From: an uncultured Clostridia bacterium
GTDB lineage: Bacteria; Bacillota; Clostridia; Oscillospirales; Oscillospiraceae
Direction of reading: 5' to 3'
DNA: 64,000 nucleotides
Assembly: GCA_947365965.1 (NCBI GenBank)
Contig: CANAZG010000003.1
Location: forward strand, 1-64,000
Position 1 is the stretch's first letter. Each line of letters begins with the position of its first letter. A program made the position numbers and the translations under genes. Below the pieces are notes generated by a model. The model worked only from the letters and a program-made list of their open reading frames with translations. It made no database searches and had not been told where the DNA came from. This document shows positions 4,114 through 48,834 of this stretch, piece by piece.

Positions 4114-4160
4114 CATTCTTTTTTCTTGAAAGAAAAAAGAATCAAAAAAGAACTTTAGAG
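4114..4160 (-). repeat. Leader hairpin repeat, copy 1 (upstream of thrC)
   Basis: ATTCTTTTTTCTT-GA-AAGAAAAAAGAAT 13-bp perfect stem plus CAAAAAAGAACTTTAGAG flank; same family as 7465, 8959, 47413, 47531, 47572. Confidence 0.9.
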
Positions 4161-7464: not shown

Positions 7465-7503
7465 AAGTTCTTTTTGATTCTTTTTCTTTCAAGAAAAAGA
7501 ATG
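7465..7503 (+). repeat. Leader hairpin repeat, copy 2 (upstream of YgeY-type gene)
   Basis: AAGTTCTTTTTG ATTCTTTTTCTT-TC-AAGAAAAAGAAT G. Confidence 0.9.
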
Positions 7504-8958: not shown

Positions 8959-9007
8959 AAAAAGTTTTTCTTTTTGGTTCTTTTTCTTGTTCACAAAGAA
9001 AAAGAAC
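8959..9007 (+). repeat. Leader hairpin repeat, copy 3 (upstream of YgeW)
   Basis: AAAAAGTTTTTCTTTTTG GTTCTTTTTCTT-GTTCACA-AAGAAAAAGAAC. Confidence 0.88.
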
Positions 9008-37154: not shown

Positions 37155-37402
37155 GGCGGCTTCTCCTTTCCAGCGCGTATCGCGGAGCAGCAAAAAAGGG
37201 CGCTCCCGGCCGCGGCCCCTCCGGGCCGGACCAGGAACACCCATAGCAGGGCCGAAGGGCGGCCCCGTAGAAACTTTCGCGCCATCTCCGCGAAATTATA
37301 TGAGCGGATATCAGTTGCTATACACAGTATACCAGAATCCGCCGCCCGGCGCAAGGGAAAATATAGCGCGATCTGCGCACACCCCCCGGCTTCCACACGC
37401 CA

Positions 37403-44582: not shown

Positions 44583-45659
44583 CTACAGAATATGCACCGA
44601 CTCCGGATCGAACACCAGATGGCAGCTCTCCCCCACCTGGTAGATCCGCTTGTTCTTGGGGTTGTAGTCCGTCAGCTTCACCAGGGTATTGCCCACCATC
44701 ACATGGTAGTTCTGATAGGAGCCCATGAAGCAGGACAGGATCACCTTGCAGGGCAGGCCCCCCTGGTCCGCCAGGACCGCGGACTCCGGACGGAGCACCA
44801 CCGTGTACGTCTCGCCGGACTTCATGTCCGCCTTGGCGGGCACCCGGGTGGGATTTCCCTCGATGTTCAGCACCGCGCGGTCCCCCTCCAGACCCTCCAG
44901 CGCGCCGGTAAGGAAGTTGGCCTCGCCGATGAAGTCCGCCACAAATTCGCTGTTGGGGTGGTAGTAGATCTCCTGGGGCGTGCCCATCTGGGCCACCACG
45001 CCCTTGTTCATGATGATGATATTGTCCGAGAGGGCCATGGCCTCGCTCTGGTCGTGGGTGACGTAGATGGCGGTGATGCCCACCTCCTGCTGGATGCGGC
45101 GGATCTCCGTGCGCATGGACACCCGCAGCTTGGCGTCCAGGTTGCTCAGGGGCTCGTCAAAGAGGAGCACGCTGGGCTCGATCACCAGGGCCCGGGCCAG
45201 GGCCACCCGCTGCTGCTGGCCGCCGGAGAGCTGGTTGGTCATGCGGCCCTCCATGCCCGTCAGCTCCACCAGATCCAGAATGCGCATTACCCGGTCCTGA
45301 ATCTCGTTTTTCGCAACCTTGCGCAGCTTCAGGCCGTAGGCCACGTTGTCAAAGACGTTGTAGTGGGGCAGCAGGGCGTAGCTCTGGAAGACCATGGCCG
45401 TGTCCCGCTTGTTGGGGGTCAGGGCGTTGATGGCCTCGTCTCCCAGATAGATCTCCCCCTCGTCGGGGCTCTCAAATCCGGCGATCATCCGCAGGGTGGT
45501 GGTCTTGCCGCAGCCGGAGGGGCCCAGCAGGGTGACAAAGGAGCCGGGCTCGATGGTCAGGGAGGTGTCCCTCACCGCATAGAAATCCTTGCCGGTCTTG
45601 GGGTCCTGGTAGATTTTGGAGATATGCTCCAGCTTGACGCCCTTTTTCACTTTAGACAT
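44583..45659 (-). CDS. Fbp/Pot-type ABC transporter ATP-binding protein (system 1)
   Basis: [54 protein letters not shown]-like C-terminus. Confidence 0.94.
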   Translation of the reverse strand: MSKVKKGVKLEHISKIYQDPKTGKDFYAVRDTSLTIEPGSFVTLLGPSGCGKTTTLRMIAGFESPDEGEIYLGDEAINALTPNKRDTAMVFQSYALLPHYNVFDNVAYGLKLRKVAKNEIQDRVMRILDLVELTGMEGRMTNQLSGGQQQRVALARALVIEPSVLLFDEPLSNLDAKLRVSMRTEIRRIQQEVGITAIYVTHDQSEAMALSDNIIIMNKGVVAQMGTPQEIYYHPNSEFVADFIGEANFLTGALEGLEGDRAVLNIEGNPTRVPAKADMKSGETYTVVLRPESAVLADQGGLPCKVILSCFMGSYQNYHVMVGNTLVKLTDYNPKNKRIYQVGESCHLVFDPESVHIL

Positions 45660-47370
45660 GGCTGTCCTCCTTGATTTTTCTGCTGGTGCCGAAGAACTTG
45701 ATAAACAGGTTCATCAGCAGCACCGCGCCGTAGGTGATGACAATCAGGATGGTGGCAAACGCGCAGGCGATGGAGTAGGACCCCTTCTCCGCAAACTCGT
45801 TGATCTGCACGGTGATGAGCAGGAACTGGGGCGTCACCAGCAGGATGATGGCGGAGATGGCGGTGATGGAGCGGACAAAGGCGGTGACAAGGCCGCTGAG
45901 GAAGGAGTCCTTGATAAGAGGCAGGGTCACGGTCATGAAGACCTTGAAGCTGTCCGCGCCCATGTCGTAGGCCGACTCCTCAATGGACTTGTCGATCTGC
46001 CGCAGGGCGGAGATGCCACTGCGGGTGCCCGTGGGCAGGGAGCGGACCACAAAGACGATAATCAGGATGGCCGCGCTGCCGTAGATGCCCTGCAAAAACC
46101 CGGTGTGGAACACACCGCCGGAGAAGCCCCGGATGTACCCCACGCCCAGCACCGTGCCGGGCACGGCCATGGCCAGCATGGACACGGCCTCAATGAAGCC
46201 CTTGGCCTTGAACCGCCGCTTGACCACCAGATAGGAGATAATCATAGAGAGCAGGGCCGTGATGGGGGCGGCGATGAGGCTGAGGACAAAGGAGTCCCGG
46301 AAGGCCCGCAGACCCTTGTACTTGGTGAACACCTGACCGAACCACTTGAAGGTCAGGGGGGTGAACTTGTACCCCCAGGTGGGGAACAGGGCCCCGATGG
46401 GCACGCAGGCATACATCATGATGACGAAGAAGGCCGCCAGGGCGCACAGGATGGTCAGGGGGATGGAAACGCTCCGGTCCTCAATGAGCATCCGGCCACG
46501 GGAGGCCTTGCCCGTCAGGGTGGCGGCGGTCTTGGCCTCCAGGTAGTACTTCTGCACCGCGAACATGAGCAGGGTGATGCTCAAAAGCACAACGGCCATG
46601 GCCGCCGCGCCCTCCTTGTCGTAGGCGCCGGTGATTTGCAGGTAGATGGTGGTGGCCAGGGTGTCGTAGGACCCGCCGATAATCATGGGGTTGGCGAAGT
46701 CGGCAATGGACTCAATGAAGGTCACCAAGAAGGCGTTGCCCAGGCCCGGCAGCAGCAGGGGCATGGTGACGGTGAGAAACACCTTGCTCCGGGAGGCCCC
46801 CATGTCCCGGGCCGCCTCCTCCAGGGAGGGGTCTATGTTCTTCAGCAGGCCCTTGAGCATCATGTAGCACACGGGGAAGAAGGTGAGGGTCTGGACGATG
46901 ACGATGCCCCAGAACCCGTACACGTTATTGTCGTAGATGCCCAGCAGGAACCGGGTGATGAGCCCCGCCTTGCCGAAGAGCATAATCATGGAAAGGCTCA
47001 GCACAAAGGGCGGCGACACCACCGGCAGCATGGACACCACCTTGAAGAGGCCGCCTACCGCCTTGCCCACCCGGACGTAAACCTCCACATAGGCGAACAG
47101 CAGGCCCACAATGGTGGACAGAATGCCCACCAGGAAGCCCACCTTCAGGGTGTTGGTGATGGCGGTGATGAAGTTGGGCATGGCCATGATGCGCTGGAAG
47201 GTGGCCAGGGTGAAGCCGTTCCCGCCGTAGAAGCTGTCCACCAGCAGGATGGCCAGGGGGTAGAGGATGAACAGGGTGAGGAATGTGATGAGGACCACAA
47301 TGGTCAGCACCATGATCGGGTCCGCCATCAGCTTTTTCCGGTCCAGCATCGCGCTCTGACTTTTCGCCAA
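45652..47370 (-). CDS. FbpB-type two-domain ABC permease (system 1)
   Basis: Two EAA loops (EEAARDMGASRSKVFLTVTMPLLLPG; EESAYDMGADSFKVFMTVTLPLIKDS); TTG start with GGAGG SD. Confidence 0.9.
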   Translation of the reverse strand: MAKSQSAMLDRKKLMADPIMVLTIVVLITFLTLFILYPLAILLVDSFYGGNGFTLATFQRIMAMPNFITAITNTLKVGFLVGILSTIVGLLFAYVEVYVRVGKAVGGLFKVVSMLPVVSPPFVLSLSMIMLFGKAGLITRFLLGIYDNNVYGFWGIVIVQTLTFFPVCYMMLKGLLKNIDPSLEEAARDMGASRSKVFLTVTMPLLLPGLGNAFLVTFIESIADFANPMIIGGSYDTLATTIYLQITGAYDKEGAAAMAVVLLSITLLMFAVQKYYLEAKTAATLTGKASRGRMLIEDRSVSIPLTILCALAAFFVIMMYACVPIGALFPTWGYKFTPLTFKWFGQVFTKYKGLRAFRDSFVLSLIAAPITALLSMIISYLVVKRRFKAKGFIEAVSMLAMAVPGTVLGVGYIRGFSGGVFHTGFLQGIYGSAAILIIVFVVRSLPTGTRSGISALRQIDKSIEESAYDMGADSFKVFMTVTLPLIKDSFLSGLVTAFVRSITAISAIILLVTPQFLLITVQINEFAEKGSYSIACAFATILIVITYGAVLLMNLFIKFFGTSRKIKEDSHV

Positions 47371-47412
47371 GGGTAGCCCTCCTTTCTTGTCACAAAACAC
47401 AGAACAGGTCTT

Positions 47413-47460
47413 CATTCTTTTCTTTGTGAACAAAGAAAAGAATCAAAAGAAAAACTTTAG
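47413..47460 (-). repeat. Leader hairpin repeat, copy 4 (upstream of permease 1)
   Basis: ATTCTTTTCTTTG-TGAA-CAAAGAAAAGAAT stem plus CAAAAGAAAAACTTTAG flank. Confidence 0.88.
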
Positions 47461-47530
47461 AAGCTGCGCGTATGGGTACAGGCAATCTCACGATCGCGCG
47501 TTAGACAGCTGGCAGTTATCAAAACACCTC

Positions 47531-47571
47531 TAAAGTTCTTTTTGCCTACTTTTTCTTTCAAGAAAAAGTAG
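47531..47571 (+). repeat. Leader-type hairpin repeat, copy 5a
   Basis: TAAAGTTCTTTTTGC CTACTTTTTCTT-TC-AAGAAAAAGTAG; arms show compensatory changes versus copy 2. Confidence 0.88.
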
Positions 47572-47608
47572 GGTTCTTTTTGATTCTTTTTCTTTTAAGA
47601 AAAAGAAT
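47572..47608 (+). repeat. Leader-type hairpin repeat, copy 5b
   Basis: GGTTCTTTTTG ATTCTTTTTCTT-TT-AAGAAAAAGAAT G. Confidence 0.88.
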
Positions 47609-47664
47609 GGATACAAAACGGGGGATGGCGGCGTGGGCCATCCCCCATCTGTGCTGGGTTCGAT

Positions 47665-48834
47665 TTACTCGGTCTGGAAGCGGTCATCGCCGCCGCCCAG
47701 GGCGCTCATGACCTCTTCAATATAGGTGGTGATATTGTTCTTGGCGTCCTCGAAGTCGTACTTCATGACGTTGTTGGGGTCCAGGCCGAAGTCCGCAGCC
47801 TGGGAGGGCTGCTGGGCGTTGTCGATGACCAGGAACTGGTAGGAGCCGTAGTCGTCGGCCAGCTCCACGCACTCGGGGGACAGGGCGTACTCAATCCACA
47901 GCTTGGCGGCGTTGGGATGGGCCGCGCCCTTGAAGATGGCGGTGGCGCCCACCTCGAAGGAGGTGCCGCTGGAGGGGATCACCAGCTCGATGTTCTCATA
48001 GCCGTTGTCCACGATCTGGGTGATGCCGTCGTGGAGGAAGCCGATGCCCACCACGCACTCGCCGGTGCCCACGTTCTTGGACGGGCCGGAGCCGGACTTG
48101 GTGTACACCTCAATGTTCTTGTCCAGGTCGACCAGGTACTGAATGCCCTCGTCGTGGCCGTACTTCTGGATCATGGTGTTGATGACCAGCTTGGCGGTGC
48201 CGGCGGTGTTGTAGTTGGACAGCCAGATCAGGTCCTTGTACTCCTCCTTGAGCAGATCCTGCCAGTCCTGGGGGGCCTCCAGGTTCATGCGGGCCAGCTC
48301 GTCCTTGTTGACCATGAAGCCCAGAATGCCCTTGTAGATGCCGTACCAGTAGCCGTCAGCGTCCCGGTACTGGGCGTCCAGCAGGTGGGAGGCGTTGGCC
48401 GCGTCATAGGCCTCCAGCAGGCCCTCGGCCGCCACCACGTTGTAGGGATCGGTGGTGCCGCCGAACCACACGTCGGCGGAGGGGTTGCCGTTCTCCTCCT
48501 CAATCTTGGCCTGGACCTCGCCGGTGGACAGGCGCTGATAGGTGGTCTTGATGCCGTAGAGCTCCTGGAAGTGCTCGCAGGCGGCGGAGAGGTACTCCTC
48601 CTCGCAGGAGCCGTAGACCACCAGCTCGCCCTCGGCCTGGGCCGCGGCCACCAGCTCCGCCATGGGATCGGCGGGGGCGGCGGGCTCGTTGCTGTCCGCC
48701 GGCTTCTGGCTGTCGGTCTGGTTATCGGCGGGCGGCGGGGTCTGGTCCGCCGGCTTGTTGTCGTCCTTGCCGCCGCAGGCCGCCAGAGACAGGGCCATCA
48801 GCAGGACAAGCAGCAGAGATAAAAACTTCTTCAT
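47665..48834 (-). CDS. Fbp-type extracellular substrate-binding lipoprotein (system 1)
   Basis: Lipobox LMALSLAACGG; ELVVYGSCEEEYLSAACEHFQELYGIKTTY. Confidence 0.9.
   Translation of the reverse strand: MKKFLSLLLVLLMALSLAACGGKDDNKPADQTPPPADNQTDSQKPADSNEPAAPADPMAELVAAAQAEGELVVYGSCEEEYLSAACEHFQELYGIKTTYQRLSTGEVQAKIEEENGNPSADVWFGGTTDPYNVVAAEGLLEAYDAANASHLLDAQYRDADGYWYGIYKGILGFMVNKDELARMNLEAPQDWQDLLKEEYKDLIWLSNYNTAGTAKLVINTMIQKYGHDEGIQYLVDLDKNIEVYTKSGSGPSKNVGTGECVVGIGFLHDGITQIVDNGYENIELVIPSSGTSFEVGATAIFKGAAHPNAAKLWIEYALSPECVELADDYGSYQFLVIDNAQQPSQAADFGLDPNNVMKYDFEDAKNNITTYIEEVMSALGGGDDRFQTE

Follow-up and report, generated by a model that had tools for sequence, protein, structure and literature searches.

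Dispersed hairpin repeats of Oscillospiraceae with a third strand that changes in step with the stem, suggesting a preserved triple-helix fold

Results

Repeat units of the window and their neighbouring genes

The window, that is, the whole stretch of 64,000 nt of DNA that was analysed, carries thrC, ygeY and ygeW, whose identities were confirmed with NCBIfam, and an operon for a substrate-binding protein (SBP) and its permease, for which the best NCBIfam matches, TIGR03261 and TIGR03262, both fell below the cut-off. Six copies of an A/T-rich motif adjoin these genes (Table 1). All six had been listed in a preliminary description of this DNA and were present where it placed them; the lengths of their T/A runs and the two variant feet were as it reported, and our approximate distances to the start codons agree with the earlier values to within 1-2 nt. 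Folding as single-stranded DNA gave z-scores of -2.2 to -4.4.

Table 1. Repeat units and other features of the window; unit spans run from the left arm to the foot.
Feature	Position	Strand	Form	Runs	Foot	Loop	Context and remarks
Unit	4115..4156	-	A	6/6/6	ATT/AAT	TTCA	24 nt before thrC; left arm AAAGTTC-T6-G, stem C-T6-CT
Unit	7465..7502	+	A	5/5/5	ATT/AAT		37 nt before ygeY
Unit	8960..9007	+	B-like	5/5/5	GTT/AAC		ygeY-ygeW gap, 39 nt before ygeW; long upper stem, imperfect in this copy, with GTTCAC loop region
Purine riboswitch	37224-37323	-					Rfam RF00167, 60 bits; sole Rfam cis-regulatory RNA in the window
Divergent repeat pair region	45652-48834						pair flanked by a phnS2-like substrate-binding gene and the permease gene belonging to it
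Composite element	47414..47608	.					outward-facing units filling the SBP-permease operon gap; hairpins outside, third-strand arms inside
Unit	47414..47458	-	B	4/4/4	ATT/AAT		40 nt before permease TTG start
Unit	47532..47571	+	A	5/5/5	CCTA/TAGG		faces stop codon of opposite-strand SBP gene
Unit	47573..47608	+	A	5/5/5	ATT/AAT	TTTA	tandem to unit 47532..47571

The copies had been described as a family of leader hairpins. Four of the six do lie before start codons; the units at 47532 and 47573 face a stop codon instead, that of an opposite-strand gene, so that the term "leader" fits only four. The classic REP of malE-malF in E. coli occupies the same operon position as the repeat pair between the SBP and permease genes.

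Unit anatomy and compensatory changes in the stem foot

Each unit consists of a 5' arm and a hairpin. In Form A the parts are AAAG-TT-C-T(n)-G / NNN / C-T(n)-CT-TTCA-AG-A(n)-G / NNN; in Form B a longer upper stem (CTTTG-TTCA-CAAAG) goes together with a correspondingly longer arm (AAAG-TTTTT-C-T(n)-G).

The changes that had been noticed as matched across the stem proved to be truly compensatory, and they extend beyond the window copies first compared. The 3-nt foot, represented by 14 different triplets, was fully complementary in 213 of 231 distinct copies, complementarity not having been a search condition. Shuffling within genomes gave 62 complementary copies on average and 85 at most, which places the observed covariation far above this null. 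Since quasi-palindrome correction could match the feet without selection, the foot alone is not decisive.

Units that lie close together (within 600 nt) are arranged divergently, with 40 pairs in the order "-+" versus 4 in the order "+-". An inner palindrome, CTGCCGGCAG, was seen in many of the pair spacers, between both arms (e.g. loci L030, L031, L040 and L028), often twice per spacer as inverted copies.

In the source genome of the window, copies with AT-type feet (e.g. the unit at 4115 and loci L013, L014 and L034) show the hairpin followed by G-NNN-AC-N-AAA, and the string ATG-NNN-ACN-AAA after the hairpin sometimes reads in frame into the next gene. Coding as a general feature was rejected, relatives commonly keeping only the G after the foot. 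An intrinsic terminator was likewise rejected: the stem is A/T-rich, not G/C-rich, and the next base is mostly G, with no U tract. On the reverse strand of the hairpin, CAAAAAGAAC comes next.

A third strand coupled to the stem

A pyrimidine segment located 5' of the hairpin, which had escaped the preliminary description, proved to be coupled, in parallel orientation, to the stem. In all six copies of the window the left arm, C-T(n)-G, has a T run equal to the stem run (4/4/4, 5/5/5 or 6/6/6), and the three runs were all equal in 225 of 243 regex matches of the first wider set. A generic hairpin scan of about 2 Mb of DNA gave a diagonal table of arm run against stem run. Exact patterns counted in 121 whole genomes, from 106 genera of the family, yielded 679 copies with equal arm and stem runs (299 with 4/4 and 380 with 5/5) versus 14 with unequal runs (4/5 or 5/4; 6 + 8), a few places being counted twice through overlapping matches; reversed-pattern controls gave 0 or 1 match per genome.

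The 4/4 and 5/5 versions coexist in the source genome, in six others (G011, G076, G102, G117, G132 and G085) and inside one subfamily. As both lengths occur within the same subfamily and genome, the identity of the runs has probably been re-established more than once, although the copies are related and the matches are not independent events.

The arm 5'-TTCTTTTT-3' lies alongside 5'-AAGAAAAA-3' of the 3' arm. A pyrimidine-motif triplex has this parallel geometry, and so has a purine-motif one if the other strand is read. Where the first pair above the run is C-G, the facing arm base is C in 164 of 172 distinct contexts; where that pair is G-C, the arm base is T in only 12 of 22 contexts. Opposite an inverted pair of this kind, triplex chemistry leads one to expect T.

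Two other pairings of the arm were considered. An antiparallel switch between left arm and 3' arm was discarded, as it suits NTT feet only, and copies with ATA, ATC and CTA feet still have the left arm GTTC. Pairing of AAAG with CTTT as a possible stem 1 of the main form leaves the match between arm base and loop base (G with C, A with T) unexplained.

G/C-rich sister forms

Forms with G/C-rich upper stems (CC, CCC, CGC, GC and GT) occur in the same genus, and further forms were found in other genera (genomes G137, G148 and G159). Sister families of the same architecture were seen at loci L200, L202, L210 and L211 and at loci L260-L279 of genome G011, several of them after CCTTGAG.

In these sister forms the loop can form Watson-Crick pairs with about 4 nt located directly 5' of the third strand (CGTG/CACG, GCAA/TTGC, GTTGA/TCAAC, CCGC/GCGG and CCCA/TGGG for arm and loop, respectively). 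A match of at least 4 bp in a tight register was present in 32 of 72 loop types; 3000 shuffles gave a mean of 4.35 and a maximum of 11. The predicted order of parts is that of an H-type pseudoknot with the third strand as loop 1. The forms of the window itself carry no such arm-loop stem, and only the loop base facing the first base of the arm (G with C, A with T) hints at matching.

H-type pseudoknots with a major-groove triple helix are known from telomerase RNA and from the SAM-II and preQ1-II riboswitches. As in these, a T/U-rich loop 1 would run along the A-rich strand of stem 2, with a length equal to that of the stem, and in the units the putative loop 1 follows stem 2 base by base; complementarity that would join the 5' segment to the hairpin loop as a short stem 1 is strong in sister forms only and absent from the main forms of the window. 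Unlike these RNAs, the units are dispersed, lack a strand bias, occur in both transcript senses and have no gene family in common.

The covariation pattern is that expected of an intrastrand triplex, with an H-type pseudoknot extension in the sister families.

Gene context

The context of the copies was surveyed in about 1 Mb, mostly 20-kb stretches around known copies plus the window, with a home-made gene caller. Among 148 distinct copies only 1 lay inside a gene, though 82% of the sequence was coding. Tandem gaps held 53 copies in sense and 45 in antisense orientation, convergent gaps 28 and divergent gaps 14; the divergent gaps nevertheless account for 27% of the intergenic bases (gaps of at least 60 nt). 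Other counts for tandem gene pairs were 23 sense versus 18 antisense and 60 versus 57.

The median distance from the end of the hairpin to a downstream start codon was 44 nt, and about half of the copies adjoin an opposite-strand stop codon (median 15 nt). A pair that fills a short gap thus has two symmetrical outcomes, of which the leader position is one. Random placement and orientation relative to genes had been named beforehand as evidence against selection on the hairpin. Orientation was indeed random; placement was not, the copies lying at gene edges and avoiding divergent (promoter) gaps.

No Rfam family covers the element, nothing credible being found at the gathering or at permissive thresholds. 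A cis-regulatory leader RNA was rejected as a candidate, given that there is no fixed orientation to, or conserved association with, particular genes.

Family size, spread and turnover

A covariance model gave 72 matches in the source genome. A query of 80 nt, in which two 40-nt copies of the motif were joined, gave 58 alignments there, some of them reverse-strand matches to the same palindromes. Both numbers are well in excess of what chance would give. Between 3 and at least 109 copies were found in 24 of 25 genomes of the genus. With strict filters, the model of the main form had no match outside the genus among 60 relatives; exact patterns matched in about ten or more other genera, with single matches in some. 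An exact degenerate pattern was found in at least 110 stretches of public genomes and, among the matches listed, almost all were labelled Oscillospiraceae or Clostridia; isolates of Pseudoflavonifractor were among them. A phage carrier was rejected, as one viral contig only was found.

Among the orthologues whose leader was read, the copy at ygeY (7465..7502) was present in the source genome only. The ygeY-ygeW gap was empty in several congeners and was occupied by different units of the same architecture in five others (G001, G019, G014, G012 and G010). In many congeners the orthologues of ygeY, ygeW and the SBP-permease operon had no element.

A pair occupies the SBP-permease gap of the source genome, and a related pair that of G001; in G017, G011 and G008 this gap is empty. 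Alignment of this gap from G001, G017 and G008 with MAFFT, with loci L170 and L173 read by eye, showed a clean gap and no evident target duplication. The units come and go between species.

Search for a mobilising enzyme

No match to PF01797 (Y1/RAYT) was found in genomes G014, G015, G011, G006, G007 and G009, the first of which is 98% complete and holds at least 109 copies. Given this absence from near-complete, high-copy genomes, mobilisation of the units by RAYT/Y1 is not supported. The source genome has one lone IS200/IS605-family transposase gene (locus L154, 1450-1893, minus strand, contig C14), adjoining a tRNA cluster; its product has HVY where the HUH motif is expected, and the gene is possibly degenerate.

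An autonomous parent was sought in 22 candidate gaps between outward-facing units. No recurrent gene family was found, the sole matches being identical loci taken twice.

Comparison with BoxC and with REP/BIME elements

The nearest known architecture is that of BoxC, also named PIT or TM_ECO, a family of E. coli repeats able to form an intrastrand triplex (Hoyne et al. 2000; Holder et al. 2015, PMC4666352). The triplex was obtained in vitro, with no stable triplex in vivo and no function found (Holder et al., PMC4666352). The BoxC/PIT rule is a contiguous pyrimidine arm, a short spacer and a pyrimidine-loop-purine hairpin whose matching stems measure 6-15 nt and whose loops measure 1-6 nt (PMC4666352), and the Oscillospiraceae units conform to it in arm, spacer, hairpin, stem length and loop length.

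Nine BoxC copies were checked in eight E. coli loci (including L320-L322). Both families have a pyrimidine arm, a 3-nt spacer, a hairpin and an intergenic site, and in both, two types combine in inverted pairs that keep the arms inside and the hairpins outside. The differences lie in sequence and in pairing. The BoxC consensus is G/C-rich, CCCTCNCCC...GGGNGAGGG, with an N3 spacer; in the copies read, one type has TAA there and the second has CGA, CCG or CAG, and this spacer is unpaired across the hairpin. In contrast, the Oscillospiraceae core, CT(n)G / CT(n)..A(n)G, is unrelated, A/T-rich and widely variable, its foot pairs across the hairpin, and the sister forms add an arm-loop stem. BoxC is known mostly as a near-invariant sequence, whereas the Oscillospiraceae units show covariation of three strands. 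The units would work like BoxC and, the core sequence being unrelated to the BoxC consensus, are not members of it.

With REP/BIME elements (REPINs) the units share their nature of short intergenic palindromes, high copy number, inverted pairs and scarcity in divergent gaps. Unlike REP/BIME, they have no GTAG-type tag, the hairpin being adjoined by T(n)G and a variable triplet; there is no RAYT in the near-complete, high-copy genomes, and the third strand is an extra.

Discussion

Our results lead us to favour, with some reserve, the view that the copies are dispersed, non-autonomous, REP/BIME-like DNA repeats of an Oscillospiraceae superfamily, which would be mobile and in which the three-strand fold would be conserved rather than the sequence. 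The 5' arm C-T(n)-G would run beside the neighbouring hairpin's stem (NNN-C-T(n)-upper stem-loop-upper stem-A(n)-G-NNN), parallel to its purine strand, and the two would form an intrastrand triplex of T.A-T, C.G-C and T.C-G; in the G/C-rich sister forms about 4 more nt would pair with the loop, giving the H-type pseudoknot. Close neighbours are divergent pairs set in tandem or convergent gene gaps. The units most likely spread as DNA via a single-stranded intermediate recognised by its shape by an enzyme, and the strands would stay matched if copying were restricted to units whose three-strand fold is intact. Some evidence weighs against this view: BoxC gave no stable triplex in vivo (PMC4666352), the T rule for G-C pairs is followed in only 12 of 22 contexts, the copies are related, the window's own forms have no arm-loop stem, and neither the fold-recognising enzyme that we infer for mobility nor a target duplication or a cargo-bearing parent was found.

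The units might instead be DNA-level punctuation at gene edges, the triplex being selected for a cellular role, such as polymerase pausing, supercoiling or sites for nucleoid proteins, and not for spreading. Such a role would suit units that tightly adjoin stop codons and ribosome-binding sites, and DNA polymerase is reported to be blocked by PIT elements in vitro (PMC4666352). We regard it as improbable, in view of the rapid gain and loss at orthologous sites and of the range from 3 to at least 109 copies between congeners, in which low-copy species manage without the units.

Template switching is a known way of perfecting palindromes. It could match the hairpin arms without selection, the arm match being inherited in a few old subfamilies, and could account for the foot and the stem of copies that are related. 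A mutational artefact of this kind does not predict the parallel (mirror) match of the arm, the C/T rule or the arm-loop complementarity, and both run lengths occur inside single subfamilies and genomes; we give it little credence.

A shared 5'-UTR regulator or RNA-processing element had been proposed beforehand; the active part, within the downstream gene's transcript, would be the hairpin or else an RNA triplex. In four of the six window copies the next start codon is 24-40 nt away, and RNA can form pyrimidine-motif triplexes (PMC4666352). This proposal is weakened by the absence of strand bias (53 versus 45); half of the copies face stops, the neighbouring genes are unrelated, most orthologous leaders lack the element and Rfam has no match to it. 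A regulatory (leader) function is thus quite unlikely, and of the three options first put forward the palindromic mobile repeat, settling between genes, fits best; copies in 3'-UTRs may have a side effect on RNA stability. That the units are REP elements moved by a RAYT (Y1 HUH) transposase missed owing to incomplete genomes is very hard to credit, since the REP/BIME-like traits named above are set against the absence of PF01797 from the six genomes searched, a lone IS200-family gene in the source genome and the lack of a conserved GTAG-type tag 5' of the hairpin.

A mobile or fast-turnover DNA repeat conserved for its three-strand fold is the best-supported reading of these comparisons, within the limits set by the relatedness of the copies, by draft genomes and by the home-made gene caller. 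More speculatively, and with considerable doubt, we propose a class of mobile bacterial DNA whose recombinase would recognise a triple-helical, partly pseudoknotted fold of single-stranded DNA by its shape; E. coli BoxC would then be a distant and near-silent form of this class. As such an enzyme would tolerate most sequences whose strands match, the family could evolve by three-strand compensatory change across ten or more genera.

Our literature search found no earlier comparative (covariation) case for a maintained three-strand fold in a bacterial repeat, and a search for the printed motif sequence returned unrelated matches only. Descriptions of the E. coli intrastrand-triplex repeats (BoxC/PIT) go back to the 1990s, yet a role of their third strand in the cell has stayed in question, in part because the E. 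coli copies hardly vary. The Oscillospiraceae units vary freely, and their third strand varies along with them. That it changes in step with the hairpin suggests that evolution preserves a triple-helix fold. The units offer hundreds of natural compensatory variants for biochemistry and a handle on the protein that would read them, and they provide, in gut bacteria, a rich natural data set on a long-unexplained class of bacterial repeats.
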